A DNA stretch of 64,000 nucleotides, from positions 30,560 to 94,559 of the IMG/VR virus record IMGVR_UViG_3300009183_000058. One strand, written 5' to 3'. The stretch is from a virus. Positions 35,328 through 51,619 of the stretch are shown piece after piece. A program made the translations under genes and the position numbers. Below the pieces are notes generated by a model that did no database searches, was not told the DNA's origin, and saw only the letters and a list, made by a program, of their open reading frames with translations. Position 1 is the stretch's first letter. Each line of letters begins with the position of its first letter.

Positions 35328-36240
35328 CATAGCAGATTTAGATTGCATTTACCTATCATATGATGAGCCACAAAAAGAAGAATTCTGGGTCAAGATCAAA
35401 AACATGGTTCCATGGGCCCAAAGAATTGATGGTGTATTCGGCTCTGACGCGGCACACAAGGCAGCCGCTGATGCAAGTGATACAGAAAGATTTATTCTCA
35501 TTGATGGAGACAACCTCCCGGACCCGGCGTTTTTTAATCAAACATTGGATTTTCCTGCTGGTGATTATGAGCAGGCTGTGTTTAGATGGAGAGCACGTAA
35601 TCATATAAACGGACTCATGTACGGCAATGGTGGCCTAAGTTCCTGGACACGTGAATTTGTACGCAACATGCGCACACACGAAGCCACAGATGGTCGCACA
35701 GAAACACAAATAGAATTTTGTTTTGATCCCTTGTACTGGGCCATGCATGACTGCTATAGTGTAACATATCCAAATGGATCAGCATTTCACGCCTGGCGTG
35801 CCGGATTCCGCGAAGGCGTCAAAATGTGTTTGAATCGCGGAGCAAGACCCACTGTGAGTGAATTCCGTGATCGTGTGCATCAAAGAAACTTAGATCATTT
35901 GACCATTTGGCACAATGTGGGCGGTGATGTAGATTATGGTTACTGGAGCATTGCAGGTGCAAGGCAAGGCACATACATGACCATGCTTACTAACTGGGAT
36001 TACTTACAGGTACAAAACTTTGCGGCACTGGCTGAACTTTTCAAGACCGTGGAAAACGATCAACCAGAAATCATTGCCAATCGACTGGCAGATGATTTGG
36101 CCACACAACTGGACTTGCCCATGCACATGCTCACAGCAGAAGCCAGCCGGTTCTTTAAACACCACTATCGTAGCAACTGGCACAACCAAGGCATCATGGT
36201 GCGAGAAATTGATGTTATTAGAGCACAAGAAGGTTGGTAG
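35314..36240 (+). CDS. GT-A-like phage protein with DGD motif (308 aa)
   Basis: It starts LDCIYLSYDEPQKEEFWVKI, continues FGSDAAHKAAADAS and then RFILIDGDNLPD (DxD-like, residues about 67-75), and has ARNHINGLMYGNGGL and AWRAGFREGVKMCL. The same order of motifs occurs in the C-terminal 230 residues of the 602-residue protein at 52753-54561 (ISNGEKDA, YHAAARMSTTPWFFAVFAK, AKNTINDLEYGHQGM, AWRTAFRECLKL), so the two are homologous. The DGD is present here but not in that copy. I infer a transferase acting on a sugar nucleotide. It overlaps the previous gene by 14 bases. Confidence 0.66.
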   Translation: MSKIDIADLDCIYLSYDEPQKEEFWVKIKNMVPWAQRIDGVFGSDAAHKAAADASDTERFILIDGDNLPDPAFFNQTLDFPAGDYEQAVFRWRARNHINGLMYGNGGLSSWTREFVRNMRTHEATDGRTETQIEFCFDPLYWAMHDCYSVTYPNGSAFHAWRAGFREGVKMCLNRGARPTVSEFRDRVHQRNLDHLTIWHNVGGDVDYGYWSIAGARQGTYMTMLTNWDYLQVQNFAALAELFKTVENDQPEIIANRLADDLATQLDLPMHMLTAEASRFFKHHYRSNWHNQGIMVREIDVIRAQEGW

Positions 36241-36241
36241 C

Positions 36242-36934
36242 ATGATTGGGTTGATTGGAAATACAGGCTTGATTGGCGGAGTACTTAAATCTACTATTTT
36301 ATTTGATTTAGAATACAACACTTCAAACATTTCAGACATACAAGGCAAGCACTTTGATGTCTTGTATTGCGCCGCTCCCTCGAGCAATAGGCTTTTGGCC
36401 AACAAGTATCCAGAGCAAGATCAATCCAACATACGTTTGCTAATAGACTATCTTAAAACAATCACAGTAGATAGATTTGTTTTGATAAGTTCTGTTGATG
36501 TGTTACATGCGCCAGAAACTGTTTATGGTCACAATCGAGGACAACTTGAAAAATTTGTCAAAACTCAATTCAACAATCATCATGTGATAAGATTGTGTAC
36601 ATTGATTCACAGTGACATTAGAAAAAATATACTGTATGATTTAAAACACAGTTTGTATTTGGATAAAATCAATGCCAATACAGTTAGACAATATTATCCT
36701 TTAGATAAATTAGTTGAAGATATAAACACTATTATCAACAACAATATTCAAGACATAAATCTTGTGAGCGAACCCATCAAAGATCAAATAATAATTGATC
36801 GATTTTTTCCTAATATCTCAGTCAACAGTGCATCTTGTGAGCCGTACAATTTATCATGTGAGAAACCACCATTTGGTCGTTATAATTTCTCACAAAGTCA
36901 GACGTTTGACTACATTAAAAAGTATTTTGAATGA
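36242..36934 (+). CDS. Rossmann-fold SDR-like protein (230 aa)
   Basis: The ATG at 36242 follows the previous stop with one base between; an earlier in-frame start would lie inside that gene. The opening MIGLIGNTGLIGG fits the GxxGxxG dinucleotide-binding turn of extended SDR enzymes, and VLYCAAPSSN and FVLISSVDVLHAP match the following strand positions. It continues with TVYGHNRGQLEKFV, where a YxxxK catalytic pair would be expected: Y is present but the residue at +4 is Arg. It is shorter than typical epimerases (about 310), lacking most of the substrate domain. It may be a nucleotide-sugar reductase or degenerate. Confidence 0.6.
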   Translation: MIGLIGNTGLIGGVLKSTILFDLEYNTSNISDIQGKHFDVLYCAAPSSNRLLANKYPEQDQSNIRLLIDYLKTITVDRFVLISSVDVLHAPETVYGHNRGQLEKFVKTQFNNHHVIRLCTLIHSDIRKNILYDLKHSLYLDKINANTVRQYYPLDKLVEDINTIINNNIQDINLVSEPIKDQIIIDRFFPNISVNSASCEPYNLSCEKPPFGRYNFSQSQTFDYIKKYFE

Positions 36935-37890
36935 TCGTATTTGCCAACAGCAATAGTACTATTTGGAATAGAGATCAACTTGTAATTGACTTGGCACATG
37001 CCATGAGTCTACAATTACCAAGAATAGATCTCAAAGCCAATGGAGAAGGACCGTGTGCCATTAGTCTCGGTTTGTATGATCTGTTAGACAACATGTGCAG
37101 TAGATTTAATTACCCAGGTAATCAAATTTACCTAACTACCTGTAACCTAGTAGAAAAACATCACATTTATAATATTATAATTAATCCCCAGGTGTATTAT
37201 CTAAATACTGCACAAAAATATACACCTCCCAGTGTTGGTAAACAAATACAAAAGCACTTTGGGCATTTTATAGGACACGGTAATGGTCCTAGATTGTATC
37301 TAGGCAGTTATCTTTATCGAAACCACCGTGAAAGAACTTTACAAACGTATCATTGTGATACAACAGAAAAGTATCATCGACCTTTTATAGGGCTAGAAGA
37401 TTTGATGTTTTCTCAGCATGGCTGGGATTGTGTTGATAGTGCAATAGAATTGATAAAGTCTGCGCCTATCACATCTGACAAAATTGATCAATACCCTATT
37501 TTGAGTCCTGCAACATTTAACATCACTAAATTATATCCAGAATTTTTTGTTGAAGTTGTTAACCTGACCTATTGGTCCGGTAATACATTTTATATTGATG
37601 AAAAAATTTGGCGTCCTATGTTGATGCGTACACCTTTTATTGTGCATGGACCACAAAACTTTTTATCAAGACTACAAAAATTAGGATTTAAAACTTTTGG
37701 CCAATGGTGGGACGAAGGTTATAGCGAAGATCCCGAAGGGTGGCAACTGACAGAAATTCCTAAAATAATAGATCGTATAAGTCAATTGTCAATCAGTGAA
37801 CTTGAATCTATGTACGCAGATATGAAACAAACAGTTGATCACAATTATCATCTGATGAAAAGTCTAGAAACACAACAATTGTATGTCTAA
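36931..37890 (+). CDS. Glycosyltransferase-like protein (GT10-like C-terminal motif), 319 aa
   Basis: First of five related proteins in this window. The C-terminal third has IDEKIWRPMLMRTPFIVHG, then FLSRLQKLGFKTFGQWWDEG, matching the shared pattern (T/S)EKxxKPxxxxxPF(I/V) and LxxLGFxTFxxxxDExYD. The EK(I/T)-x3 segment resembles the donor-binding motif of GT10-type fucosyltransferases, but the N-terminal halves of the five diverge. The N-terminal 180 residues are unassigned, with QIYLTTCNLVEKHHIYN and a Trp-poor body. It overlaps neighbours by 4 and 8 bases. Activity is inferred only. Confidence 0.62.
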   Translation: MIVFANSNSTIWNRDQLVIDLAHAMSLQLPRIDLKANGEGPCAISLGLYDLLDNMCSRFNYPGNQIYLTTCNLVEKHHIYNIIINPQVYYLNTAQKYTPPSVGKQIQKHFGHFIGHGNGPRLYLGSYLYRNHRERTLQTYHCDTTEKYHRPFIGLEDLMFSQHGWDCVDSAIELIKSAPITSDKIDQYPILSPATFNITKLYPEFFVEVVNLTYWSGNTFYIDEKIWRPMLMRTPFIVHGPQNFLSRLQKLGFKTFGQWWDEGYSEDPEGWQLTEIPKIIDRISQLSISELESMYADMKQTVDHNYHLMKSLETQQLYV

Positions 37891-38746
37891 ATTGTTTATA
37901 CCATATGCAGAATTTTACATGATAAATGTTTGTAATTTGGCTTGTCCGGGTTGCAATCGATTTAACAATTACCAATTCAATGGGTATCAAAGTTGGGGCG
38001 ATTATGCTGAAACTTATCAACAATGGTCCAGACAGGTTGACATCGGCAGTATAGGAATCCTAGGTGGTGAACCATTACTTAATCCTACTTTTATAGAATG
38101 GGTTGTGGGTATAAATCAGTTATGGCCTAAAAAGGCAATAAGAATTATCAGCAATGGATTACGGCTTGATCGGCAACCAAAATTGTATTCAATACTGCAA
38201 CAACACCCTAATATTGTATTATGGGTCGGAATACACAACAAACAGCACAAGAAAGAAGTCATACAAAAAGTAAAAGACTTTACCCAAGCACCACATCAGG
38301 TGAGTTTTAACAGTGACAATCCTTATCAACAATACATGATGATAACAGATGCCAATGGTGTGAGGGTCAAAATAGAATACAATTGGTGGTTCCATCAAGG
38401 TGCTATTGTCAAACAAGACAATGTGCTGACTCTGCATCAAAGCGATCCTGTCAAAGCACATGATATTTGTCACATGAAAACTTGTCATCATTTCATACGT
38501 GGCGGATTGTATAAATGTGGTGTGGCGGCTGTATTACCTGAATTTGATGAACAAAATAAGTTGGCGTTGACGACTGAGGATCGTGATCTCATGCTGAGTT
38601 ATCGCCCTTTACAAATCAATGACAGTGCTGAAGTCAAACAGCAATTTATTGCCAATCTTAACCAGCCCATTGATCAATGTCGTTTTTGTCCCGAACAATA
38701 TCACGGTGATCAAATTTTTGCTCAACACAAAAAGGATCTAAAATGA
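37883..38746 (+). CDS. Radical SAM protein with C-terminal SPASM-like cysteines (287 aa)
   Basis: Radical SAM motif C17-x3-C21-x2-C24 (VCNLACPGCNRF), followed by GILGGEPLLNP (residues 58-67), the SAM-contacting GGE motif. The C-terminus carries C196, C201, C212, C266 and C269 (HMKTCHHF, YKCGVAA, QCRFCPEQ), the arrangement expected of a SPASM/twitch auxiliary iron-sulfur domain in its normal position. It is shorter than the other five in the island, which carry their auxiliary cysteines at the N-terminus. The substrate is unknown; relatives modify peptides or small molecules. It overlaps neighbours by 8 and 4 bases. Confidence 0.86.
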   Translation: MSKLFIPYAEFYMINVCNLACPGCNRFNNYQFNGYQSWGDYAETYQQWSRQVDIGSIGILGGEPLLNPTFIEWVVGINQLWPKKAIRIISNGLRLDRQPKLYSILQQHPNIVLWVGIHNKQHKKEVIQKVKDFTQAPHQVSFNSDNPYQQYMMITDANGVRVKIEYNWWFHQGAIVKQDNVLTLHQSDPVKAHDICHMKTCHHFIRGGLYKCGVAAVLPEFDEQNKLALTTEDRDLMLSYRPLQINDSAEVKQQFIANLNQPIDQCRFCPEQYHGDQIFAQHKKDLK

Positions 38747-39447
38747 CATACATATTTGCCGGAGATAGTTGGGCACTCAAAGGGTTTACTGATAGCAATT
38801 ACGACAAAGGTAATCAACAACCATTGCCCGGCGATGTTAGGCTGGCCGACCATTGGCCTTGGCCTTATCAGCATTGTTTGAGCCCAGGACAAGGCAATCT
38901 TGCTTGCTTGGATAAATTGATCGACATGCGTGTTCCGTCTACAGTACCTGTGATTTGGGTATGGACCGAGCCCGGCAGAGATTACGGACGCATACAAAAT
39001 GCACCGCCTCACGAATGGATCGAACGAGAGGACATGTTTGAGTTGCGTACTAGGCTAAATCATGCTATAATGAGTGAGATTCGAGCAAGAGTAGAAAATC
39101 CTATTGCATTTATTGGAGGTCTCAGTGACGTTGACACAACACTAGCACAGGAATATGGGTTTGATGTGTTATGTGCCAGTTGGCAACAATGGATAGCACA
39201 AACTTTAAATTCGCAGTGGTTTGTGCATGGCTGGGGAGCCAGTGATGTGGGCTGGCGCATGCATAGTAATGGTATTAGGCCAGGCCGTGCCGCTACCTTC
39301 GCTTGGGATGAACAGATCAAAGAATGGTGTTGGTGGGAAGATGAGGGATATTTTTGTCATGAACATCCTACTCCCAAAGCCAATGAAGAATTTGCACAAT
39401 ATCTAAAACCTAGAGTGGAACAATGGCTGAAAAATCAAATTTTTTAA
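38743..39447 (+). CDS. SGNH/GDSL-like hydrolase or esterase (234 aa)
   Basis: Block I is at the N-terminus: FAGDSWALKG with nucleophile S9. A block-II-like Gly/Asn pair follows (GQGNLACLD), and IAFIGGLSDVDT lies mid-protein. Block V is unusual: near the C-terminus is CHEHPTPKANEEFA, where the catalytic His is present but the Asp three residues before it is replaced by Cys. A similar phage-type SGNH protein lies at 61321-62067. Activity could be de-O-acetylation of a glycan or it may be non-enzymatic. The ATG overlaps the radical SAM stop (ATGA) and the end overlaps the next gene by 25 bases. Confidence 0.65.
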   Translation: MTYIFAGDSWALKGFTDSNYDKGNQQPLPGDVRLADHWPWPYQHCLSPGQGNLACLDKLIDMRVPSTVPVIWVWTEPGRDYGRIQNAPPHEWIEREDMFELRTRLNHAIMSEIRARVENPIAFIGGLSDVDTTLAQEYGFDVLCASWQQWIAQTLNSQWFVHGWGASDVGWRMHSNGIRPGRAATFAWDEQIKEWCWWEDEGYFCHEHPTPKANEEFAQYLKPRVEQWLKNQIF

Positions 39448-40796
39448 ATGCCGCAGAACACATGCAGGCTCAACTGGGACATGCACTGTGCTTGGCCAAA
39501 TGGAAACAAGTGAGTTTACACTTGCCCACAGGACTCAACAACTCCTGTTACCATCCGCCCTTGCATGCTATAGATTCTGTGGCCATTGCCGCCAATCCTG
39601 CGGCCTTGCACAATACTGAACACAAAAAAGAACAGCGTCGAATAATGTTGCGTCAGGAGCGTCCTGCAGAATGTTCCTATTGTTGGAACATGGAAGACCA
39701 AGGCAAACTAAGTGACAGGCATTATCGTTCAGGTGAGCCCTGGGCCGCAGTAGACTTTGAAAAAATTAAAAACTCCTCAGGAGATGAAGATGTTATTCCT
39801 TCTTATGTGGAAGTCAACTTTAACCATGCTTGTAACCTCAAGTGTAGTTATTGTAGTCCTCAGTTTAGTAGTAGTTGGGCTGATGAAGTTGCCCGTGATG
39901 GTGGCTATCCAACTAGTACTACCCATAATGATCCATCGCATTTTATGGGTAATAGACAACCCATCCCAGTTCGCGAACACAATCCGTATGTTGAAGCATT
40001 TTGGTCTTGGTGGCCGACGCTATACCCTGAACTAGAACACTTCCGTATGACCGGTGGCGAGCCGCTAATGGACAAGAACACTTATCGGGTGTTTGATTAT
40101 GTGTTGGCTAACCCTAGTAAAAAACTACATCTGAACGTTACCAGTAACTTCTCTGTAGAACCTGAATTGTTCAAACGATACCTTGACTACGTAAAGAACA
40201 TTTGTGACGGACGCATTGAACACTTTATGCAGTATGTGAGTGTGGACTCTGGAATACCAGCACAAGCCGAATACATACGCCATGGACTTGACTACATGCG
40301 AATGTTCGACAATGTGAACCGCTACTTGACCAAAGTGCCTAGTTATAACAGTCTCACATTTATCATTACCATGAACAATCTCTCTGTAACAGGATTAAAA
40401 TCTTTACTGGGTTGGATATTATTTTTGAGAAGAACACATAGCCGAACTTATCAGCGAGTATGGTTTGATACTCCTGTACTACGCACACCCAGTTGGCAGA
40501 GTTTACAAATATTACCTGAGAGTTATGCTCTTAAATTGGAAGAAGTCAAACAGTTCATGCTAGAACACATGGAAGATCCACGATACCCGCACCAAGGATT
40601 CAAAGACTACGAAGTGGCTCGATTGGATAGAGACATTGCTTGGATGCGCAGTGCGCAAGCACAAGATCACTCCAAGGCACGTGCAGACTTTTACAGATTC
40701 TTTGCGGAACATGATCGTCGACGTGGCACAGACTTCTCAAACACATTCCCTGAAATGCGGTCGTGGTGGGACGAGTGCAGATATCATGCTAGGTAA
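39423..40796 (+). CDS. Radical SAM protein with N-terminal Cys/His cluster (457 aa)
   Basis: Radical SAM core C137-x3-C141-x2-C144 (HACNLKCSYC) with FRMTGGEPLMD later. Before the core is an N-terminal cluster: C23 (CLAKW), SCYHPPLH (C42) and C84-x2-C87 (CSYCWNMEDQG), resembling a SPASM/twitch domain placed upstream instead of downstream. The C-terminus (DRRRGTDFSNTFPEMRSWWD) matches the 41892-43229 protein (DQRRGKDFSAVFPELKEWYD), so the two are close paralogues. Other such enzymes in databases are called twitch-domain radical SAM proteins; no function is known to me. It overlaps neighbours by 25 and 11 bases. Confidence 0.87.
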   Translation: MAEKSNFLNAAEHMQAQLGHALCLAKWKQVSLHLPTGLNNSCYHPPLHAIDSVAIAANPAALHNTEHKKEQRRIMLRQERPAECSYCWNMEDQGKLSDRHYRSGEPWAAVDFEKIKNSSGDEDVIPSYVEVNFNHACNLKCSYCSPQFSSSWADEVARDGGYPTSTTHNDPSHFMGNRQPIPVREHNPYVEAFWSWWPTLYPELEHFRMTGGEPLMDKNTYRVFDYVLANPSKKLHLNVTSNFSVEPELFKRYLDYVKNICDGRIEHFMQYVSVDSGIPAQAEYIRHGLDYMRMFDNVNRYLTKVPSYNSLTFIITMNNLSVTGLKSLLGWILFLRRTHSRTYQRVWFDTPVLRTPSWQSLQILPESYALKLEEVKQFMLEHMEDPRYPHQGFKDYEVARLDRDIAWMRSAQAQDHSKARADFYRFFAEHDRRRGTDFSNTFPEMRSWWDECRYHAR

Positions 40797-41895
40797 CCAC
40801 AGACTTGTATGCGATACTTCCTGCGAGATACACACAGAAATACAACATCTCGTAGATGATACATTTTGGGATTTTGAGCAATACGAACCCCAGCCTAATG
40901 ACATTGTTGTGCTGGCCAGACAAACTGTAAATCGTTATGCAGATCGTGTGAAACAACTTGCAGAGATTTGCTTACCCGTACTGGCCAATCCATCAGAAGG
41001 ATCGATTACTCTTAAATTACAATGCCAACGACTAGGATTGATAGATCTAATTCGAAACAAGAAATTATTATTAGTTGGGTGCGGAGATATGGAGCCTGAA
41101 CTCAACTGCATGGTGTACGATCATTATGCTTACAGAGCAACCTGTTATGAAAGCAATGCCAAACAAGGTGCTCGTGTAGGTGAAATCTATAACAAATTAC
41201 ACAAACCCTATAAGTTTCTTTTCTTGAATGGACGCACGAGACCACACAGAAAATACATGATAGAACTCATGCGTGATGCTGGCCTGTTGGCACATGCACT
41301 TTGGACCAACTTGGACACTACCCCAGTATACCATCACACCTATTCGACTGATCTGTTTGAGAGACCCAACAAGATACAACTGTTACCCGCCGAATATGAA
41401 GTAGAACAATTTCATGCAGGACAAAAAGACCAATATCAACATGCATTTGTCAAACACGAATTGTTTGATAACAAATGGGGCGACGTGTATATTCGTGCTG
41501 AACCCTACATAGATACCTATTTCAGTTTGGTGTCAGAAACTGTGTTTGACTACCCTTACAGCCTGCGTAGTGAAAAAATTTACAAACCCATTGCCATGGG
41601 TCATCCTTTTGTGGCAGTGGCCAATTGCGGTTTTTATCGCGACTTGCGTCGCGCAGGATTCCAAACATTTGATCACCTGATTGATGAATCATTTGACTCA
41701 ATAGACAACAATCAAGATCGATTGGATCGAATAGCCCAAGTGGTGCAAGACTTATGTGAGAGCAATCTGGCGGAATTTCTGGTTGCAAGTCGAGCAGTAA
41801 CTAAGTATAATCAACAACACTTGGCGGCAGAAGGACCTAGAATCTTTAGCGAATTTCCTGACCGTTTTGTTAATTTTATCCAAAATAATTTGTGA
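40786..41895 (+). CDS. Glycosyltransferase-like protein (369 aa), EKxxKP family
   Basis: The ATG at 40786 gives an 11-base overlap with the previous gene; a frame from 40636 would run 160 bases into it. The C-terminal half has YSLRSEKIYKPIAMGHPFV and YRDLRRAGFQTFDHLIDESFD, the signature shared with four other proteins here. The centre has YKFLFLNGRTRPHRKYMIEL, which may contact the donor phosphate (basic patch). The N-terminus (HRLVCDTSCEIHTEI) is unique. It sits between two paralogous radical SAM genes. Confidence 0.66.
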   Translation: MLGNHRLVCDTSCEIHTEIQHLVDDTFWDFEQYEPQPNDIVVLARQTVNRYADRVKQLAEICLPVLANPSEGSITLKLQCQRLGLIDLIRNKKLLLVGCGDMEPELNCMVYDHYAYRATCYESNAKQGARVGEIYNKLHKPYKFLFLNGRTRPHRKYMIELMRDAGLLAHALWTNLDTTPVYHHTYSTDLFERPNKIQLLPAEYEVEQFHAGQKDQYQHAFVKHELFDNKWGDVYIRAEPYIDTYFSLVSETVFDYPYSLRSEKIYKPIAMGHPFVAVANCGFYRDLRRAGFQTFDHLIDESFDSIDNNQDRLDRIAQVVQDLCESNLAEFLVASRAVTKYNQQHLAAEGPRIFSEFPDRFVNFIQNNL

Positions 41896-43229
41896 ACGAT
41901 TTAGAATTCAAACATGAAGTTTTAGACAAACTATCTGATAGTTTTTGTGCGGCCAAATGGTACAATGCCACTATTTGGTTAGGCTCTGGTATGACCACAA
42001 GTTGTCACCACCCTCCAGCCCATTTGGTGGACATTGATAAAGTCCAGGCCAACCCTAGGCTGTTGCACAATACTGATCAAAAGAAAGAAGACAGACGTAA
42101 AATGCTTGCAGGTGAACGACCTAAAGGTTGTGAATACTGCTGGAAGATTGAGGACATGGGCAAGGATGCTGTTAGTGACCGTGTGTACAAGAGTAAAATA
42201 TATCCCATAGAGGCCTTACATGACGCATTTAATACTCCTGCAATGCAAGAGATCAATCTCCGTACACTGGAAATTGCTTTTGATCGTACTTGTCAATTTG
42301 CTTGCAGTTACTGCAACCCTGCTTTTAGCACAACTTGGGTTAGTGATATTCGACGCAACGGACCCTACAACAATCTTGTTAGTGACGGGCGCAATCACTT
42401 TACCCACACCCATGATAGTGCTCAGTTGTTTAAGATCACGGAGAGTAATCCCTACATTGATGCATTTTTCGCATGGTGGGAATCAGACCTACATCATACA
42501 CTCCAGGAACTTAGAATCACCGGAGGAGAGCCCCTCATGTCGGCCCACACCTGGCGCCTTATTGATTGGTTTAAAACAAATCAGGGCAAGAGTCACACAC
42601 GTTTGGCTATCAATAGTAACTTGGGAACCGAAGTTGATGTTGACCGACTGCTTGCCAGCACAGCCGGAATGGCAATCGACTTGTACACCAGCAATGAGTC
42701 AATATCAACTCAGGCAGAATATATACGTGATGGACTTGTGTGGGATGAATGGGCTAACAACGTAGAACGCTTGCTAGATTCAGGACAGTTCCGTGGTATA
42801 CATGTTATGTGTACTGTCAACGCACTATGTTTAAGCACCTTGGATCAATTACTAGAGTGCATAATGAATTGGAAACTGGAATACGGTCAAGATGCTGTTT
42901 CGTTTACATTAAATATCTTGCGCTTTCCCAGTTTTCAGTCGCCGCTGGTATTGCCTGATGCCCAGCGCATAGTGTATAGACAACGCTTGGAGACCTGGTT
43001 GGCGCACTGGGCTGATAGTGAGTTCATTCACGAACACGAAGTCAATCACACCCAACGCTTGATTGATTATTTGGATGTGGTCAAGACCCCGCACTCAGAA
43101 GCATTTGATCGGCCCCGGTTATTGAATGACTTTAAACAGTTCTATACACAATACGATCAACGTCGTGGCAAAGACTTTAGTGCTGTATTTCCTGAATTAA
43201 AAGAATGGTATGACGCAATACAAGTATAA
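41892..43229 (+). CDS. Radical SAM protein with N-terminal Cys/His cluster (445 aa), GTG start
   Basis: Paralogue of the 39423-40796 protein over the full length. N-terminal cluster: C19 (CAAKW), SCHHPPAH (C38), C80-x2-C83 (CEYCWKIEDMG). Core: C134-x3-C138-x2-C141 (TCQFACSYC), then LRITGGEPLMSAHTW. Both paralogues also share LHNTxxKKExRRxML between the second and third cysteines. The start is GTG at 41892, overlapping the previous TGA (GTGA). The end overlaps the next gene by 20 bases. The replacement of a Cys by His in the N-terminal cluster (CxH) distinguishes this pair from the three that follow. Confidence 0.87.
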   Translation: MNDLEFKHEVLDKLSDSFCAAKWYNATIWLGSGMTTSCHHPPAHLVDIDKVQANPRLLHNTDQKKEDRRKMLAGERPKGCEYCWKIEDMGKDAVSDRVYKSKIYPIEALHDAFNTPAMQEINLRTLEIAFDRTCQFACSYCNPAFSTTWVSDIRRNGPYNNLVSDGRNHFTHTHDSAQLFKITESNPYIDAFFAWWESDLHHTLQELRITGGEPLMSAHTWRLIDWFKTNQGKSHTRLAINSNLGTEVDVDRLLASTAGMAIDLYTSNESISTQAEYIRDGLVWDEWANNVERLLDSGQFRGIHVMCTVNALCLSTLDQLLECIMNWKLEYGQDAVSFTLNILRFPSFQSPLVLPDAQRIVYRQRLETWLAHWADSEFIHEHEVNHTQRLIDYLDVVKTPHSEAFDRPRLLNDFKQFYTQYDQRRGKDFSAVFPELKEWYDAIQV

Positions 43230-44472
43230 CTCTACTGATCTAGTACGTGCCACAGAACTCACCGAGCGTGAACGTTTCTTGCTAGAAGACTCCAAGACAT
43301 TCTGTATCTATCCTTGGATTCATTTGCATGCATATCCCACAGGTGAAGCATATCCTTGCTGTCATGCTGAAATGAAGCCAGGAGTAGTGGGCAACTGTAG
43401 AACAAACACGCTTGAAGAAATATGGCAGGACAAGCCTATGCAACAGTTACGTGCTGATATGCTGAGTGAAACGCCACATGCCGCTTGTGTACGTTGTTAT
43501 GAACAAGAACAATCGGGATTCTTTTCAGGACGCCGATCAGCAAATAAACATCACGGGCATCATGTTAAAAAATTAGATGCTAATCCGTTTGAAATGACCT
43601 ATTGGGATATTCGTTTCAGCAATCTTTGCAATTTAAAATGTCGCTCATGTGGGCATATCTTTTCAAGCCAATGGTACCAGGATCAAGTGAAATTAGCAGG
43701 CCCTGAATGGAAAGATCGCAACGCAGTTCTTAACTATGCAGGGCGCACAGAAACAGACATGTGGACACAATTAGAACCGCATTTGGACTATGTAGAACAA
43801 ATCTACTTCGCAGGTGGCGAGCCATTGCTGATGGAAGAACACTACAACATCTTAGAAGAACTGGTAAAGAGAAAACGCTTTGATGTACGATTAATCTACA
43901 ATACAAATTTCACGCACATAGATCTAAAAGGCCGTTCAGTATTTGAATACTGGCGACAGTTTGACTCAGTGGCAGTGGGTGCGTCATTGGACGGCATGGG
44001 CCATCCTGCCGAATACATACGCAAAGGTACCCGATGGTCGGACGTTGTGCAGAATCGTCACAGAATGATTGCAACGTGTCCCAATGTAGACTTTTACATT
44101 TCGCCCACACTCAGCATATTAAATGCTTGGCATTTGCCAGACTTTCACAGAGAATGGTGTGCCGCTGGACTAATTCAGCCACAAGATTTAAATGTAAACA
44201 TTTTGCAAGATCCAGCATACTATAGAATAGATATTGCTACGGTTGAGTACAAACAACGACTAGAAGAAAAATACCGTAAGCATTTGTCCTGGATGAGTGA
44301 TAGAGATCCATTGGGTCGTGCCACGCAAGGATTTCAATCAGCCATTCAATTCATGAACGCAACAGACAATACACAGTTGATCGACACATTCTGGCGTAAA
44401 ACGCACGAACTGGATGACATTAGAAATGAAAACGTCTTGGACGTGCTTCCTGAACTCAAGGTTTTGAAATGA
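43210..44472 (+). CDS. Radical SAM protein with N-terminal SPASM-like cluster (420 aa)
   Basis: N-terminal cluster: C32 (FCIYPWIHLHAYP), C50-C51 (YPCCHAEM), C93-x2-C96 (CVRCYEQE), the sequence order of a SPASM domain (CxxPW...G...PCC...C-x2-C) but located before the core. Core: C140-x3-C144-x2-C147 (LCNLKCRSC), then FAGGEPLLMEEHY and VGASLDGMGHPAEYIRKGT. The latter resembles the conserved substrate-facing strand of SPASM enzymes. It is closely related to the next gene and to 46556-47845. The end overlaps the next ATG (ATGA). Confidence 0.88.
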   Translation: MTQYKYNSTDLVRATELTERERFLLEDSKTFCIYPWIHLHAYPTGEAYPCCHAEMKPGVVGNCRTNTLEEIWQDKPMQQLRADMLSETPHAACVRCYEQEQSGFFSGRRSANKHHGHHVKKLDANPFEMTYWDIRFSNLCNLKCRSCGHIFSSQWYQDQVKLAGPEWKDRNAVLNYAGRTETDMWTQLEPHLDYVEQIYFAGGEPLLMEEHYNILEELVKRKRFDVRLIYNTNFTHIDLKGRSVFEYWRQFDSVAVGASLDGMGHPAEYIRKGTRWSDVVQNRHRMIATCPNVDFYISPTLSILNAWHLPDFHREWCAAGLIQPQDLNVNILQDPAYYRIDIATVEYKQRLEEKYRKHLSWMSDRDPLGRATQGFQSAIQFMNATDNTQLIDTFWRKTHELDDIRNENVLDVLPELKVLK

Positions 44473-45674
44473 ATTTACCACACGATAAATTTTGTGTATT
44501 GCCCTGGGTAAGCCTAGAAGCCAGCCCTATAGGTACAGTGCGTCCCTGTTGCTTGGCCGATGATGAAATTGTAGACAGTAATAGTGTCAAGTTTAACTTG
44601 AAGTCTGCTAATTTTCGAGATATTCAAAATAGCGAATACATGTACCAATTGCGACAAGCATTCTTAGCAGGAAAACAACCCGCCACTTGCCGCAAGTGTT
44701 GGAATGAGGAAGACGCTGGGCGTACTAGTAAACGTATGCACACACTAGACAGACTCAAGCACATGGGCATTAGTACGGAATGGACTCGGGACGCCAAGCC
44801 ACTCATGTTCCTTGACCTTAAATTGGGCAACATCTGCAATCTCAAATGCCGTATATGCGGGTCTTGGTCTAGCAGTAGTTTTGCTGTAGAAGAAATCGCA
44901 ACTTCAATAGAAGCGCACAGCAAGACAAGTTTTGCTTATCAAATGTTAAAGGCCGGACGTTGGCCCAGAGAAAATGATCAATTTTGGACACAGATTGATT
45001 CAGTACTTAACGACATTCGTTACATTGAATTTACAGGCGGCGAGCCCTTTATGATTGAAGAACATTTTACTATGTTACAAGGCATAGTGGACCGTGGCAT
45101 AGCACACCAAGTCGAAATACACTACAATACCAATGGCACTCAGTATCCAGCGGATGCTATTGAAATTTGGAAGCATTTTAAAACAGTGGAGATTGCATTT
45201 AGTATCGATGACTTGTGTGAACGATTTGAATATCAGCGCACTGGTGCTAAATGGGTTGATGTTCAAAGAAATCTTGAACTGTTCCGTCAAATACGTCGGC
45301 AGCATTCTAATATTCAACTGCAATGTTGTTCCACCGTGAATATATTCAATGTTCGTTATATCGACCAACTGGCACACTGGATCAGTGTACAAGGCTTTGA
45401 TTTTGTATACTGGAATATCATGCATGATGCACCGTATTTTTCCATTGGCGCATTGCCTGATTCTGCAAAACAAGCCGTCGCTAATCATTTAAATACTGCA
45501 TTAAGTCCGTCTAAGTACAAGGAAGACTTTGCGGGCATCATTGATTTCATGATACGTGGCCAATCAACTGATGGTGTTGAAATTCGAAAGCAAATACAAA
45601 AATTAGACAGCCGCCGTGAACAAAATTTAGCCACTGTTGCCCCTGAACTGGCAAAATTACTTAACTATGTCTAA
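44469..45674 (+). CDS. Radical SAM protein with N-terminal SPASM-like cluster (401 aa)
   Basis: N-terminal cluster: C9 (FCVLPWVSLEASP), C27-C28 (RPCCLADD), C74-x2-C77 (CRKCWNEEDAG). Core: C123-x3-C127-x2-C130 (ICNLKCRIC), then EFTGGEPFMIEEHF and IAFSIDDLCERFEYQRTGAKW. It is the most compact of the set, with only 8 residues before the first cysteine. The C-terminal half has RQIRRQHSNIQLQCCSTVN and ends QKLDSRREQNLATVAPELAKL, matching the end of the other members (DxRREQN / DDIRNEN). It overlaps the next gene by 8 bases. Confidence 0.88.
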   Translation: MNLPHDKFCVLPWVSLEASPIGTVRPCCLADDEIVDSNSVKFNLKSANFRDIQNSEYMYQLRQAFLAGKQPATCRKCWNEEDAGRTSKRMHTLDRLKHMGISTEWTRDAKPLMFLDLKLGNICNLKCRICGSWSSSSFAVEEIATSIEAHSKTSFAYQMLKAGRWPRENDQFWTQIDSVLNDIRYIEFTGGEPFMIEEHFTMLQGIVDRGIAHQVEIHYNTNGTQYPADAIEIWKHFKTVEIAFSIDDLCERFEYQRTGAKWVDVQRNLELFRQIRRQHSNIQLQCCSTVNIFNVRYIDQLAHWISVQGFDFVYWNIMHDAPYFSIGALPDSAKQAVANHLNTALSPSKYKEDFAGIIDFMIRGQSTDGVEIRKQIQKLDSRREQNLATVAPELAKLLNYV

Positions 45675-46569
45675 AGTCAAGTTAATTTTGAGACCAGACG
45701 AATTCACTAGTTTTACTAGTTTCTATCTAGAAAGTTTTTGGCAAGAATATTTTGATATTGAATGGTTTGATAGTGAAAAAACATATGACAAATCAACCCT
45801 TTTTGCAGTCTGGTGGATGAACGCTGATGACAAATATAGTCGCCAGTTAAAAAATTCAGGTCACATTGTGATAATTGACAATCTTTGGGAACTCCCCAGA
45901 TCGGAATACAGCAACAACTATTATGAATTGAATAATAAAAATTGGTGTTGGTATAACGAAAGTTTATGGTGGCAACATTTAGGATATCATAATTATGTAC
46001 CTAAGAAAACATATAAAAAACTATCATTTATGTCGGTCAGACGACCAAGCAAAGAACGAAAAGCAATAATTGATTTACTAGGGGCCAGGCTTGAAAATTT
46101 CATATGGAGTTATCAAGACAAAAAACTACCCAATGATACAACAACAATAGATCCAAATTATCAACGATTTTTCAACTCTGAGTGGTACGATGACACTTAT
46201 TTTAGCACCGTAGTGGAAACTAGCCAAATTGGGGACTGCTGGTGGCCCACTGACAAAACATTCAAGGCATGCGCTTATTATCATCCATTTTTAATTATTG
46301 GACAACATCATACATTAAAAAGATTAAAAGAATTGGGATTTGAAACATATGATAATATATTTGACGAATCATATGACAACATAGAAGATTTTGATGCAAG
46401 ATTAAATACTGTTATAGCAAACATAGATAACTTTTATAAAATTCCATATGATTCTATTACCATTGGCAAACTCAAACACAATCATAATTTATTTTTTAAT
46501 AAAGAATTAGTAGAACAACGTATATTTAAAGAAATTGTTGAACCTTTGATATCATATGCAGAAACCTGA
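45667..46569 (+). CDS. Glycosyltransferase-like protein (300 aa), EKxxKP family variant
   Basis: The ATG at 45667 overlaps the previous stop by 8 bases. The C-terminal half has PTDKTFKACAYYHPFLIIG (EK is DK here) and LKRLKELGFETYDNIFDESYD, the family signature. Upstream it has SFMSVRRPSKERKAIIDLL, a basic patch analogous to the RTRPHRK patch of the 40786 protein. The N-terminal region (FYLESFWQEYFDIEWFD) is short. The base composition is noticeably more AT-rich than its neighbours, hinting at a different origin. It separates two radical SAM genes. Confidence 0.64.
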   Translation: MSKVKLILRPDEFTSFTSFYLESFWQEYFDIEWFDSEKTYDKSTLFAVWWMNADDKYSRQLKNSGHIVIIDNLWELPRSEYSNNYYELNNKNWCWYNESLWWQHLGYHNYVPKKTYKKLSFMSVRRPSKERKAIIDLLGARLENFIWSYQDKKLPNDTTTIDPNYQRFFNSEWYDDTYFSTVVETSQIGDCWWPTDKTFKACAYYHPFLIIGQHHTLKRLKELGFETYDNIFDESYDNIEDFDARLNTVIANIDNFYKIPYDSITIGKLKHNHNLFFNKELVEQRIFKEIVEPLISYAET

Positions 46570-47845
46570 TACCATGTGTCTTGCGCCCTGGGTGCATACA
46601 TATCTTTCACCGCAGACCGAACGCAGGATGTGTTGTGCGTCAAGAGAACCAGCGCAGAACTTTGAGCAGTATATAGATACGAGTTCGGGCACAGGAAAGT
46701 ATATTCCCATTACACTAGAGGGTCACTGGAATTCAGAGCATATGAAGTCAGTGCGCCGCAGAATGATGGCTGGAGAAACCCTGCCCGAATGCGAAGTCTG
46801 CAACGATCGACTTTTAAACACCAATGTATATCGAACATACTTCGACCATTTATTTCAGCATAAATTACCCGAGATATTTGCATCCACTAGTGAGGATGGT
46901 TCTACAACTATGGCTCCTGTGTCGTGGGATTATAGGTTCAGCAACTTGTGTAACTTCAAATGCAGAACCTGTGGCGACATGCTATCCTCGGCCTGGGAAA
47001 GTGAACAAAAACAGAACAACATGGTTGACTTATCAAATCCAAAGAACAATTGGATGCGAACAGATATACGTGGACAGATCGCACACTTTCAGGAGAATCA
47101 GGTTGAAGCCGAATTTGCTGCCGCCGTGGAACGACATGCAGTAGAAGAAATATACTGGGTTGGCGGTGAACCCCTAATGTATGAACAGCATTGGCGTTAC
47201 ATGCGACGAATAATTGAATTAGGAGATGGACCTCGACTGTATGCTAGATATAATACAAACCTTAGCAGAATTAATTATCGCGGCATGGATCTTTTTGGCG
47301 ATATTCTCAGCCATGTCCGGGACTGGCAAATATGTGCTTCATTGGATGGAACTAACGAGATTGGGGAATATATTCGTACAGGATTGGATTATGAACAGTT
47401 CAAGCGTAATTTTGAACACGGACTACGTTACGCAACAACCCCCAGACAAATGCGCATTGATTTTACACTCACGTTGCCCGGAATGCTCGAAGTTGATGCG
47501 ATACAACAATTGGCGCGACAGTTTGGAGTAGAACTACTGGCCAAAGTTATCTTTAGTTTCTCGCCAGATATCATTATGAGTCCACTAGCATTGCCTAGAG
47601 CCGTGCTGGATCCATGGGTTGACGAACTAGCAGGCCGCTCCGCAGGTGCCATGCGTGATGTACTGTTACAATTAAAGACCCGGCCCACATTTGCAGAACA
47701 GTGGCCGGATCAATACCAAGCGGCTCTTGTCAAGGGCAAGGTTCGTGTTTTACAATTAGAACAGATAAGAACACAGTCAGTAACAATGACAGATATCCTG
47801 GGCTCGCGACCAGAAGTACTAGAATGGTGGATGAAAATTGCTTGA
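46556..47845 (+). CDS. Radical SAM protein with N-terminal SPASM-like cluster (429 aa)
   Basis: N-terminal cluster: C8 (MCLAPWVHTYLSP), C26-C27 (RMCCASRE), C79-x2-C82 (CEVCNDRL). Core: C132-x3-C136-x2-C139 (LCNFKCRTC), then YWVGGEPLMYEQHW and ICASLDGTNEIGEYIRTGL, the same Asp-Gly strand found in the 43210 member. In total five proteins of the island share this architecture. It overlaps the previous gene by 14 bases and the following TTG start by 8. Confidence 0.88.
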   Translation: MQKPDTMCLAPWVHTYLSPQTERRMCCASREPAQNFEQYIDTSSGTGKYIPITLEGHWNSEHMKSVRRRMMAGETLPECEVCNDRLLNTNVYRTYFDHLFQHKLPEIFASTSEDGSTTMAPVSWDYRFSNLCNFKCRTCGDMLSSAWESEQKQNNMVDLSNPKNNWMRTDIRGQIAHFQENQVEAEFAAAVERHAVEEIYWVGGEPLMYEQHWRYMRRIIELGDGPRLYARYNTNLSRINYRGMDLFGDILSHVRDWQICASLDGTNEIGEYIRTGLDYEQFKRNFEHGLRYATTPRQMRIDFTLTLPGMLEVDAIQQLARQFGVELLAKVIFSFSPDIIMSPLALPRAVLDPWVDELAGRSAGAMRDVLLQLKTRPTFAEQWPDQYQAALVKGKVRVLQLEQIRTQSVTMTDILGSRPEVLEWWMKIA

Positions 47846-48875
47846 TCATATCGAAATGGACCTGCGCGGTCATAACAATGAAATTTTAACGGTACACATA
47901 GATGTCGAGGACAACAGTCTCAGCCGTAAATGGCTTGCGGCGTTGAATAATATTATTCAAAATAATCTACATTTGGAAAAGAATTACTGCTGGTTGGGTT
48001 GGGCTGAAAGTGCTCGCAATCCTGAATACCTGTGTACTCAAATCAATCGCAGTATACACGCCATCAACTCAGCCAACCTAGGCTATACCATACAAGACTT
48101 CTTCTCCCCGGCCAACACCGTTGCTGACAATGGAGGGGTGGATCATGCACACATGAATCAACTGCATCGTTACTTTGAAGACTTACAAGGAACAGCCGGA
48201 GCCATGAGTTCCTATTATGATTCAGCCGATGACTACACACGTTGGCACATACGCCAGTTAAATTTGCTATGTCATGAGTTTGAAAGCCTGGTACTTAGCA
48301 TACGCAAAGCCCGAACTGCACCTGAATGGCGCAGACCATCACAACTCATGTGTTGGTTAAACGCTCCGCGCTATGAATTAGATGCTGAAGATTTAGAATT
48401 GTTTGGTATAGACACAATCAACAGAAAATTGGGCGGTGTGTATGTGGGTGTAAATAAAGCAGTGGGCAAGCATCACTGGGAGGTATTTCAAGATGAAGGT
48501 AGAGATTCGAGAATTTCAGAATTGGTTACTACAGGACTACGTGTCCAGACTCAAGCGGCTGGTGACTTTGATATTGAATGGGCCCGTGATCCCGGCTCAT
48601 TCCCTTGGCAAATCAAGCAGTTGGCAGAATTTCGACTATGGCTTGAACGGAATGGATTTGACCCAGATGATGCAAGTCTTACAATCGGCCACCCTTGCAT
48701 CGGGCAAGTTGATCTCTCGAGGTCGTTTGGTACAGAAGACTGGGACAACATATACTCGCAATTGAGTCAACATCAAAACGTGTATAAAATACGTACCAGT
48801 ACAGCACAGGCTACATATGAGTATCACTGGAGTGATCCAGACTACGCAGAACAACAAATTAGGAATATAAAATGA
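47838..48875 (+). CDS. Conserved phage-type protein of unknown function (345 aa)
   Basis: Not recognised as a known enzyme. Motif-rich stretches are NYCWLGWAESARNPEYLC, INRSIHAINSANLGYTIQD, DHAHMNQLHRYFEDLQG and RRPSQLMCWLNAPRY. The His/Asp content (DHAHMN, HRYFE) could bind a metal. The start is uncertain: TTG at 47838 has GGTGGA 6 bases upstream and overlaps the previous stop, while ATG at 47856 has no ribosome-binding site. It is coupled by ATGA to the 33-residue peptide gene and then to the carbamoyltransferase, suggesting one pathway. No membrane segments. Confidence 0.6.
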   Translation: MLDHIEMDLRGHNNEILTVHIDVEDNSLSRKWLAALNNIIQNNLHLEKNYCWLGWAESARNPEYLCTQINRSIHAINSANLGYTIQDFFSPANTVADNGGVDHAHMNQLHRYFEDLQGTAGAMSSYYDSADDYTRWHIRQLNLLCHEFESLVLSIRKARTAPEWRRPSQLMCWLNAPRYELDAEDLELFGIDTINRKLGGVYVGVNKAVGKHHWEVFQDEGRDSRISELVTTGLRVQTQAAGDFDIEWARDPGSFPWQIKQLAEFRLWLERNGFDPDDASLTIGHPCIGQVDLSRSFGTEDWDNIYSQLSQHQNVYKIRTSTAQATYEYHWSDPDYAEQQIRNIK

Positions 48876-48973
48876 ATTGGTTTAAAAGACTTTGGGCAAG
48901 AATTACATTAGAAATTCGTTATCGTAAAAAATTAAAAGAACTACGCAAGCGAGATCCATTTATCTACAAATGA
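48872..48973 (+). CDS. Tiny basic peptide gene (33 aa)
   Basis: It starts at an ATG overlapping the previous stop (ATGA) and ends in a TGA overlapping the next ATG, so it is a true coupled gene despite its length. The peptide opens NWFKRLWARITLEIRY and ends DPFIYK. It carries 11 Lys/Arg among 33 residues. The first half is amphipathic, with Trp, Phe, Leu and Ile spaced along one face. It could be a membrane- or nucleic-acid-associated peptide or a partner of the carbamoyltransferase. I recall similar short proteins next to carbamoyltransferase genes in T4-like aquatic phages but cannot verify it here. Confidence 0.68.
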   Translation: MNWFKRLWARITLEIRYRKKLKELRKRDPFIYK

Positions 48974-50448
48974 ACATCCTGGGCATCTCTGCTGGCTTTC
49001 ATGATGCGGCTGCAACAGTCATAAGCCTTGACGGGGAGATATTGTTTGCCGGCCATTCAGAGCGTTATAGCAAAAAGAAAAATGATGCAGACTTTTGTCA
49101 AGGTCTGCTAGACGAAGTTCTTGCATATGGTCCTGAAGTGGTTGCTTACTATGAACGCCCTTGGGCAAAACAAGCACGACAATGGTACGCAGGTCAAGGT
49201 ATTGAATGGGACAAACTCACCACCCAGCAGATATTAAAGAAACAACTGGGTAGACAAATTGAACCCACAAAGGTGCATAGTTATAATCATCATTTATCGC
49301 ATGCGGCAGGGGGTTTTCAAACGTCACCTTTTGAACGTGCCACAGTAGTGGTAATAGATGCAATTGGTGAATGGGATACTATTAGTATATGGGGTGCAGA
49401 ATATGATTCAAAAGGCCAGGCCCGGTACAAGAGATTGTGGAGACAGGTTTATCCACACAGCATTGGGTTATTTTACAGTGCAGTCACCCAGCGTATTGGC
49501 CTACACCCACTAGACGAAGAATACATCACTATGGGCATGGCTGCCTGGGGTCGTAACACGTGGTATCATGACATGCGTTCACATGTGATTGCAAACGATC
49601 GTGATATTGAACTAAAGCAAAACTTTCACACAGGAATGAGTGAGGATTTCTTAAAGGGCGCCAGCAATGAAAACATTGCGGCCTCTGGGCAACTGGTAGC
49701 AGAGGATCTTATTCGACAAGTAATGATTCGTGCCAGAAACACAGGTTTTAGTTCAAATCTGGTATATATGGGTGGGGTGGCACTAAATTGCACAGCCAAC
49801 CGCATGTTAGGAGATTACTTTGACAAAATCTGGATTATGCCTTGCCCCGGTGATGCTGGTAGCAGTCTCGGTGCTGCCGCTTTGGCTCTTGGGAGTAGAA
49901 TTAACTGGCGGGACAGTTATCTCGGCCATTGCATTCCAGGTGTTTATCCTGTTAACCAGTTGTTGGATCGGCTTGTTAGTGACAAAATTGTCGGAGTGGC
50001 ATCAGGAAGAGCCGAGTTCGGCCCCCGCGCACTGGGAAACCGTAGCCTCCTTGCAGACCCTAGAGGCAGCGAGATCAAGGAGAAAGTGAATGAAATCAAA
50101 CGTAGACAACAGTTTAGGCCTTTTGCCCCGGTTATATTGGCTGAGGTGGTTCATGACTATTTTGATATGCCAGTGGGTTGGCATCATAGTCCTTATATGC
50201 AGTCAGTCGCTAGGTGTCGCCAGCCTGACCTTACTCCTGCTATATGTCATGTTGATGGTACCAGCCGAGTACAGACTGTGGCGCGGGACGGTTCGGGCAT
50301 AAGAGAACTACTAGAGAAATGGTACGTGTTAACAGGATGCCCTATGTTGTTGAACACCAGTCTTAACATACGTGGCGAACCCATGGTGAATGATCGTGCA
50401 GATGCAGATCGTTTTGAGCAGTTGTATAGTGTTAAGGTTTGCAGTTGA
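48970..50448 (+). CDS. Carbamoyltransferase, NodU/CmcH/TobZ type
   Basis: A 492-residue two-domain protein. The N-terminal YrdC-like/ASKHA part has NILGISAGFHDAAATVIS, an ERYSKKK segment and SYNHHLSHAAGGFQTSPF with His pair H107/H111 that bind metal. It continues with VVVIDAIGEWDTISIWG, YMGGVALNCTANRM and PCPGDAGSSLGAAALALG. The C-terminal part has GRAEFGPRALGNRSLLADPR (about residues 343-362) and CPMLLNTSLNIRGEPMV. The family moves a carbamoyl group from carbamoyl phosphate via carbamoyl-AMP to a hydroxyl of a sugar or antibiotic. Length is shorter than NodU (about 560) but keeps both active regions. It closes the island, and its end overlaps the convergent gene by 17 bases. Confidence 0.92.
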   Translation: MNILGISAGFHDAAATVISLDGEILFAGHSERYSKKKNDADFCQGLLDEVLAYGPEVVAYYERPWAKQARQWYAGQGIEWDKLTTQQILKKQLGRQIEPTKVHSYNHHLSHAAGGFQTSPFERATVVVIDAIGEWDTISIWGAEYDSKGQARYKRLWRQVYPHSIGLFYSAVTQRIGLHPLDEEYITMGMAAWGRNTWYHDMRSHVIANDRDIELKQNFHTGMSEDFLKGASNENIAASGQLVAEDLIRQVMIRARNTGFSSNLVYMGGVALNCTANRMLGDYFDKIWIMPCPGDAGSSLGAAALALGSRINWRDSYLGHCIPGVYPVNQLLDRLVSDKIVGVASGRAEFGPRALGNRSLLADPRGSEIKEKVNEIKRRQQFRPFAPVILAEVVHDYFDMPVGWHHSPYMQSVARCRQPDLTPAICHVDGTSRVQTVARDGSGIRELLEKWYVLTGCPMLLNTSLNIRGEPMVNDRADADRFEQLYSVKVCS

Positions 50449-51619
50449 TGCGATCAACCACTGCTTGTAGTCGGTGACCCATACCTGCTACAAATACTTG
50501 ATGGTTGTGTGTGATTTCCGGTTGTAACTGCTGATAGATCGAGTGCAACTCTGTCAATGGTCTAGCACACAAATCTTTAGTAAGCGCCAGCACCGCTTCA
50601 AATCGCTCTTGATTGTTTTCTATTGTGTCATAGTGTTCATCTATCACAAGACCAAAAGATTGATACCCTAGTTCACGTAGATGTGCCATATGATTGGCGC
50701 CGCTAACCGTGATAAAAAATTGATTGTTGAATATAGGCTTGAATGTTTTTTCTGTCAGAAACTCCCCACCTGAATCGTCCACATCAATCATGGTTTCCAA
50801 CACAATATTGAAATAACTGTCCTCATAGAGGTTGGTCATATTGGCCGCATAGTTGTTATGAGAGTCTGTGTTTAGTTGGTCCACACGAAATGGTCCTGCG
50901 GCGATAAATTGGTCAACTTGCGATTGTTTGTTAGACAAATAACTGTTGTTCAACGCACAACCAAAATAGTCATCCTCACCGCCTAATAGATGTTGATTGT
51001 AACTAAAATATCCATTTTTATGTAAATCATCGGCCCATAGTTCGCTCATGAATACTTTGCGCCACAGTTTGTCTATTCTACATAGGCCAGTAAACGCTCG
51101 ACTTCTTGGGCGCAGATGATACCGGGCACCTGCTGATCGATCCACGGTGCGCCAATACATAAATTCTAACTCAGGCCAGTACACACAACCGGGCACAAGA
51201 TCAGCCGATGTGTTACCACTTATCAACCATACCTGTTCAGGATCTATTGCATGGTCAGCACACAAATGATTGATACGTTCTCGTATACAAGCAGGATTAT
51301 CACCTTCATGATACGTAAATATCAACTTCATTTGTTTTTGTTTGATATACTTGTATGCGGCAGTATCAATCATGGCAAGATAGTCTGCTGAAAAATCAAA
51401 CCATCCAAGTACAACAGGGTACCAAGCACCTGCAGGTGCATCAACTGTTGAAACTATTTTCATAGGAATCTGACACTGATGCAGGTAATATATGATTCTA
51501 GGATAGTCTAGTCTATAACCATCCATGAGTTCGATCAAATGATGTTGGCTCAATGGAATACCATTGGGCATGGGCCTACCTGTCGCAGGATCTCTATGAT
51601 CAATGGCTAGATAAATCAC
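50432..51619 (-). CDS. Glycosyltransferase-like protein (395 aa), EKxxKP family, GTG start
   Basis: The start is GTG at 51617-51619, overlapping the upstream gene by 20 bases. The C-terminal third has FLTEKTFKPIFNNQFFITVSG, then MAHLRELGYQSFGLVIDEHYD, the shared signature. The centre has HLRPRSRAFTGLCRIDKLWR, a basic segment like those of the paralogues, and CGCALNNSYLSNKQSQ, an unusual Asn-rich loop. The N-terminus starts YLAIDHRDPATGRPMPNG. It is convergent with the carbamoyltransferase, with 17 bases shared and no terminator between. Confidence 0.66.
   Translation of the reverse strand: MIYLAIDHRDPATGRPMPNGIPLSQHHLIELMDGYRLDYPRIIYYLHQCQIPMKIVSTVDAPAGAWYPVVLGWFDFSADYLAMIDTAAYKYIKQKQMKLIFTYHEGDNPACIRERINHLCADHAIDPEQVWLISGNTSADLVPGCVYWPELEFMYWRTVDRSAGARYHLRPRSRAFTGLCRIDKLWRKVFMSELWADDLHKNGYFSYNQHLLGGEDDYFGCALNNSYLSNKQSQVDQFIAAGPFRVDQLNTDSHNNYAANMTNLYEDSYFNIVLETMIDVDDSGGEFLTEKTFKPIFNNQFFITVSGANHMAHLRELGYQSFGLVIDEHYDTIENNQERFEAVLALTKDLCARPLTELHSIYQQLQPEITHNHQVFVAGMGHRLQAVVDRINCKP

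Follow-up and report, generated by a model that had tools for sequence, protein, structure and literature searches.

What does a phage do with five radical S-adenosylmethionine (SAM) enzymes placed among glycosyltransferases and followed by a carbamoyltransferase? Radical SAM chemistry on sugars is known from single enzymes of antibiotic pathways, and the conservation of five such enzymes as a set in freshwater jumbo phages suggests a sugar or a substrate that is not yet known. The question is raised by a gene island in the right-hand 64 kb (the window, to which all positions refer) of the 94,559-base virus record IMGVR_UViG_3300009183_000058. Gene calls place baseplate hub, baseplate wedge, fibre-like and other structural genes upstream of the island, so its source is a contractile-tailed phage. 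The island directly continues this structural block, in agreement with an initial annotation that had put it right after the tail-fibre genes.

That annotation had listed, from 37883 to 50448, an alternation of radical SAM and transferase genes with an SGNH gene, an orphan and a tiny peptide, closing with a carbamoyltransferase, and had proposed that they make a highly decorated sugar. The order holds and the open reading frames (ORFs) exist, with starts moved from 40636 to 40786, from 45637 to 45667 and probably from 47838 to 47856, and with the tiny ORF settled at 48872-48970. The limits were drawn too narrowly, for putative glycosyltransferases at 33469-37890 and on the minus strand at 50432-52754 belong to the island too. 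Every gene junction from 33469 to 50448 is an overlap of 1-41 nt, so that this part, read from the sequence, is one translationally coupled operon. Here we show that its centre is a core of fixed order shared with many viral relatives. In the interpretation that we tentatively prefer as a whole, the radical SAM, glycosyltransferase and carbamoyltransferase genes form the middle of a late island, 24 kb long, whose products build and tailor a glycan particular to the phage.

A fixed core with exchangeable cargo

Relatives were gathered by scans with the fourth core radical SAM enzyme (57 viral loci) and with the orphan family (80 viral loci), leaving 89 distinct viral loci after removal of duplicates. 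They lie on viral contigs of up to 349 kb and represent freshwater and lake jumbo phages. Seven core genes, all on the plus strand in the window, are found together in 60 of the 89: the radical SAM genes rS1 (39423-40796), rS2 (41892-43229), rS3 (43210-44472), rS4 (44469-45674) and rS5 (46556-47845), the orphan ORPH (47856-48875) and the carbamoyltransferase CARB (48970-50448). The strict order rS1-rS2-rS3-rS4-rS5-ORPH-CARB is kept in 58 of these 60, and the remaining two differ only by an extra rS2-type gene downstream. The recurrence of this order among 89 distinct loci makes the gene set more than chance. The initial annotation had suggested such a search of other phage genomes; the relatives hold a conserved set, not fragments alone.

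The flanks are conserved as well. In relatives the block GTA1 (33469-34275), GTA2 (34259-34993), h35k (34953-35327, a small conserved protein) and GTA3 (35314-36240, 66-95% identity), all on the plus strand, stands before the core. The core is followed, in conserved positions, by GTB4 (50432-51619, minus strand), GTB5 (51600-52754, minus), GTrep (52753-54561, plus), a DegT/DnrJ/EryC1 aminotransferase (55380-56495, minus; PF01041, E 4.7e-56) and a NAD-dependent epimerase/dehydratase of SDR type (56425-57393, minus; PF01370, E 1e-47). One further gene, the near-core GTB2 (40786-41895, plus), separates rS1 from rS2 in almost every relative.

Other genes come and go. The main insertion slots are GTA3|rS1, rS2|rS3, rS3|rS4, rS4|rS5 and ORPH|CARB, and some loci, such as L027, are free of inserts. 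In the cargo of 82 representatives the Pfam families counted most often are GDSL, DUF6071, Radical_SAM and SPASM; hexapeptide and Stf0 sulfotransferase families come next, and SDR, UDP-glucose dehydrogenase and DegT occur once each. The variable cargo of the window, all on the plus strand, comprises an SDR-like gene for a candidate nucleotide-sugar epimerase (36209-36934; weak NAD_binding_10 and RmlD matches, shared with the single relative L048), GTB1 (36931-37890; in about 12 loci), a short radical SAM gene, rS0 (37883-38746; rare in relatives), an SGNH-like gene (38743-39447) and GTB3 (45667-46569; in 15 loci). Because these inserts sit in variable slots among swapped genes, rS0 and the SGNH-like gene, which the initial annotation had counted as members of the set, are optional cargo and not core. 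The SGNH assignment itself is not confirmed: the protein has an N-terminal GDSW motif and matches no family or profile. SGNH-like inserts are nonetheless common in relatives.

Beyond the freshwater loci, three marine contigs (L184-L186) carry the order rS1-rS2-rS3-rS5-rS4 between GTA3 and CARB. On marine contigs these gene families are arranged almost as in freshwater and adjoin GTA1-3, CARB, DegT and SDR genes. A distant phage clade has rS1/rS1/rS4-type enzymes beside GTA1-3.

Five orthologous radical SAM enzymes with an N-terminal twitch domain

The six radical SAM genes of the initial annotation are genuine. rS0 is recognized by PF04055 (E 1.7e-7) and scores well below the NF033640 cut-off, whereas rS1 to rS5 all belong to NF033640 (E 1.8e-92, 5e-87, 8e-118, 3e-101 and 3e-84, respectively; 283-394 bits), surpassing its curated cut-off of 170 bits by more than 100 bits. 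In close relatives rS4 retains 58-93% identity. The CxxxCxxC motif is intact in all five and present in 671 of the 671 core radical SAM sequences collected, and four cysteines for an auxiliary cluster are kept in 661 of them.

These four cysteines lie in a twitch (half-SPASM) domain that is N-terminal in rS1 to rS5. The profile of the rS3 family finds the radical SAM core in anSME; a separate match covers the C-terminal auxiliary-cluster domain of BtrN (PDB 4m7t), the radical SAM dehydrogenase of butirosin biosynthesis, and there the cysteines align. In BtrN the auxiliary cluster is ligated by four cysteines and the enzyme carries out the two-electron oxidation of an aminocyclitol (PMC9012708, PMC6231123). 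From the aligned cysteines, the twitch domain of each of rS1 to rS5 is predicted to bind one auxiliary [4Fe-4S] cluster. Like BtrN, the phage enzymes combine such a domain with a canonical radical SAM core; unlike BtrN, where the core precedes the twitch, their order is permuted, and overall similarity is weak.

In a tree of 216 twitch radical SAM enzymes each of the five freshwater groups forms its own clade, with or beside its marine counterparts; the innermost rS5 node is weak, while the nodes around rS5 have support of 92-100. The tree thus indicates that the five are old, separate orthologues. NF033640 is a family without an assigned function, whereas here five of its orthologue groups occur as one set.

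A micro-protein paired with the carbamoyltransferase

CARB is a NodU/TobZ-type O-carbamoyltransferase, as initially annotated: PF16861 (Carbam_trans_C, E 3.5e-49) and PF02543 (Carbam_trans_N, E 6e-35) match above their cut-offs, and phrog_1601 matches with an E-value of 2e-91. Immediately before it, at 48872-48970 on the plus strand, lies TINY, a 33-residue micro-protein that ends in RDPFIYK. ORFs with this ending were picked irrespective of their neighbours, and in 67 of the 77 testable loci a carbamoyltransferase frame follows directly or shortly downstream; the invariance of the last seven residues is partly due to the search pattern, which fixes them. The longer ending (K/R)KRDPFIYK stands immediately upstream of carbamoyltransferases in many viral contigs (L063-L142). 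The tiny peptide of the initial annotation is therefore present and is to be read as a part of the carbamoyltransferase module instead of as a separate item. In many of the RDPFIYK loci no radical SAM gene is visible. The candidate role of TINY as a precursor of a ribosomally synthesized and post-translationally modified peptide (RiPP), or otherwise as a radical SAM substrate, was ruled out on the ground that it accompanies CARB with or without radical SAM enzymes.

Bacteria provide a parallel. Where a twitch radical SAM gene is near a carbamoyltransferase gene (L206, L216, L225, L230), the micro-protein encoded next to it belongs to DUF5989 and ends in APFIYSLF or similar. Like bacterial DUF5989 (PF19451), TINY is encoded next to a carbamoyltransferase and keeps the PFIY end. 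It lacks the membrane helix, and membership was rejected since PF19451 misses TINY and its relatives yet matches the bacterial neighbours of carbamoyltransferases. For these reasons TINY is best described as an analogue, possibly a distant homologue, of DUF5989. One of the Sxt proteins we take to be a DUF5989 protein. The phage pair resembles both the carbamoyltransferase-DUF5989 modules and SxtI-SxtJ-SxtK-SxtL of the saxitoxin cluster (PMC2684587), in which a carbamoyltransferase is beside a tiny ..PFIY.. protein with GDSL and sulfotransferase genes nearby; it differs in that the phage micro-protein precedes CARB, has no transmembrane helix and is unmatched by PF19451. The RDPFIYK micro-protein offers a concrete handle on the control of phage carbamoyltransferases. 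At one locus (L020:3806-4675) a NUMOD3/GIY-YIG-like ORF, probably a homing endonuclease, sits between micro-protein and carbamoyltransferase.

Glycosyltransferases and the orphan

The two genes that had been called transferases, GTB2 and GTB3, have no Pfam match. For GTB2 a structural model (AlphaFold2, pLDDT 93) was compared with the Protein Data Bank (PDB) by Foldseek, and the top neighbours are GT-B enzymes: WaaG, an alpha-1,3-fucosyltransferase (FucT) and SdgB. The best of them, WaaG, is itself a weak match (prob 0.96, E 0.004, TM 0.44), so that the model weakly suggests a GT-B fold. Comparison of hidden Markov models shows GTB1 to GTB5 to be five homologous proteins, which extends the GT-B assignment to GTB3; both calls are in line with the initial annotation.

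The GTA proteins are putative GT-A-type enzymes. GTA1 has a DXD-like motif (LDADYVV), GTA2 is its paralogue, GTA3 has the motif LIDGDN, and the repeat-containing GTrep is related to GTA3. Assignment of GTA1-3 to GT8 was tried and dropped, as they show no significant match to the GT8 proteins of the Vibrio jumbo phage K566. ORPH (AlphaFold2 pLDDT 85) has relatives in 554 viral contig stretches and no match in Pfam, PHROG, PDB sequences or PDB folds. Upstream of the island, between the baseplate and fibre-like genes, a single ORF of 4153 codons (17629-30090) has a C-terminal part that weakly matches DUF2460 and a carbohydrate-binding module.

A proposed glycan for the virion

What would these proteins make together? 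The reading to which we lean, tentatively, is that the island builds and tailors a phage-specific glycan whose likelier acceptor is a virion protein. The SDR and DegT enzymes would supply an amino- or deoxy-sugar nucleotide, and the GTA and GTB glycosyltransferases would assemble the chain. The five twitch radical SAM enzymes would then act on it serially. Their most probable chemistry would be abstraction of hydrogen from C-H(OH) positions and subsequent oxidation by way of the fully cysteine-ligated auxiliary [4Fe-4S] cluster, as in BtrN, with keto sugars as products, or epimers if re-reduction follows. With TINY as its activator or docking partner, CARB would O-carbamoylate the product, and the cargo genes exchanged between loci (GT-B, SGNH-like, sulfotransferase, hexapeptide and additional radical SAM genes) would yield strain-specific versions.

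Gene context supports this proposal. In K566, which is unrelated, twitch radical SAM genes are interleaved with GT8 and GT4-type genes, and together with the neighbours and the cargo of the present island this interleaving suggests one glycan that is assembled, radically edited and carbamoylated. Two metagenome-assembled genomes (MAGs) of Bacteroidetes (L206, L225) have a twitch radical SAM gene directly upstream of a carbamoyltransferase gene with DUF5989, and GDSL and sugar genes lie close by. Of the decorated-sugar pathway first proposed, the glycan-type setting stands (GT-B, SDR, DegT and CARB genes with sulfotransferase, SGNH-like and hexapeptide cargo), whereas action of the radical SAM enzymes on sugars is a proposal, and their substrate is the weakest step.

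Several observations weigh against a glycan as that substrate. Single twitch radical SAM genes of the same jumbo phages adjoin terminase-, UvsX-, gp32- and clamp-loader-like genes (names read from sequence), and chromosomes of Bdellovibrionota have rS1/rS2/rS3/rS5-type sets with no adjacent glycosyltransferase or CARB gene. Glycosyltransferases are not enriched around cellular rS3-type genes (GT2 in 2 of 150 near against 3 of 150 far); it is GDSL that is enriched there, with 10 of 150 near and a place outside the top-25 list in the far set. These three points are why we hold the proposal at a tentative level. In addition, the Foldseek E-values for GT-B are weak, GTA1-3 are called glycosyltransferases by motifs only, and the radical domain of the core enzymes resembles peptide and protein enzymes (anSME, SkfB) no less closely than BtrN.

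The place of the product is a second matter. We regard a soluble acceptor, a tail or fibre protein of the virion, as more likely than a lipid-linked host polymer, because the glycan genes of the island include no clear membrane protein (a clear transmembrane segment was not found in any of them) and because the island is placed behind the tail genes. The same chemistry could instead furnish the host envelope with an O-antigen-like product that blocks superinfection, made through host lipid carriers and exporters. This is the published interpretation of the glycosyltransferase-rich host recognition clusters of pelagimyophages (PMC7029224). Host enzymes could indeed handle export, the GTB2 model resembles WaaG, a lipopolysaccharide glycosyltransferase, and the cellular counterpart L206 lies close to an ABC-transporter ATPase gene. 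With neither a flippase, a polymerase nor an exporter evident in the island, TINY lacking the membrane helix of DUF5989, and the operon running straight on from structural genes, we consider the host envelope a rather unlikely destination.

Less probable still is that the five radical SAM enzymes modify a protein or peptide, as in RiPP biosynthesis or the maturation of a virion protein, and lie alongside the glycan genes for reasons of co-regulation alone. The matches to anSME and SkfB, the glycosyltransferase-free sets of Bdellovibrionota and the stand-alone twitch enzymes near non-sugar phage genes all point that way. Yet the genes overlap, so that a precursor peptide could be encoded only by TINY, whose occurrence follows that of CARB and not that of the radical SAM genes; Pfam scans found no PqqD/RRE peptide-recognition domain; and the interleaving of radical SAM and glycosyltransferase genes recurs in K566. 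Finally, hypermodification of phage bases by radical, glycosyl and carbamoyl chemistry as a defence against restriction, for which the glucosylated DNA of T4-type phages is the general precedent, is highly improbable, as the island lies in a late structural block, many swappable glycosyltransferases are ill suited to a uniform base, only one of eight records of 94-349 kb has a thymidylate-synthase-type gene, and none of the eight has a Tet_JBP or 5hmdU-kinase domain (a weak negative, two of three controls being equally silent).

A more specific version of the virion-glycan proposal is possible, if doubtful: a conserved five-step radical SAM relay may edit the glycan of a virion protein serially in the cytosol, with capping by a micro-protein-controlled carbamoyltransferase, a kind of viral glycan pathway that has not been described.

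Relation to known phage clusters

The initial annotation's statement that no such phage pathway is described was too strong. Host recognition clusters with glycosyltransferases and radical SAM cassettes have been published for aquatic T4-like phages (PMC7029224), and a 2017 study remarked on 12 radical SAM genes in one marine T4-like genome (PMC5332604); a literature search for phage sets of radical SAM and carbamoyltransferase genes gave nothing closer than these two. Like the pelagimyophage and cyanomyophage clusters, the present locus is a hypervariable island in a structural region, with tail fibres, glycosyltransferases and radical SAM genes. The pelagimyophage cluster lies between VrlC and gp14; here baseplate wedge, baseplate hub and fibre-like genes are seen on the upstream side. 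Whereas the published clusters are described as non-syntenic, in this one five orthologous twitch radical SAM enzymes, ORPH, TINY and CARB make up a core that stays fixed, with defined insertion slots. We therefore regard it as a better-defined variant of the published clusters. As far as the literature was searched, what is new is that five enzymes form a fixed core of old orthology, that the locus has a slot structure, that the orphan is conserved, and that micro-protein and carbamoyltransferase form a pair.

The cultured Pelagibacter phage Mosig EXVC030M (MT647606) has a comparable row of radical SAM-type, SGNH-like, DegT aminotransferase, carbamoyltransferase and glycosyltransferase-like genes (Mosig_00083-00092); the rS1-5 profiles match none of its radical SAM proteins, and no TINY was found. 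Genes of this phage annotated as molybdenum cofactor enzymes resemble the radical SAM enzymes of its cluster (L360), one of which is apparently split from its SPASM-like part. The activity of NF033640 enzymes, none of which has been assigned, is made testable by the ordered set, by the cargo slots and by the isolated phages K566 and Mosig, whose gene combinations are related.

Twitch radical SAM enzymes elsewhere

Ordered sets of five twitch enzymes occur in both jumbo and marine phages; Bdellovibrionota chromosomes have sets homologous to them. In four jumbo relatives (L339, L345, L346 and L351, from G015-G018) a different, single twitch radical SAM gene is repeatedly beside a large-terminase-like gene, outside any sugar island. 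Clusters of up to eight twitch radical SAM genes occur in Bdellovibrionota (L191, L187, L246), that of L191 beside obgE- and rpmA-like genes. Many contigs of the Elusimicrobia MAG MJ-2014_bin-0981 (L190-L202) are largely tandem arrays of rS3-type twitch enzymes with almost nothing between the genes. In Paenibacillus (L217:9001-10290) a twitch radical SAM gene belongs to a cluster with seeming acyl-carrier proteins, ketosynthases and a ketoreductase, which suggests a lipid or polyketide substrate there.

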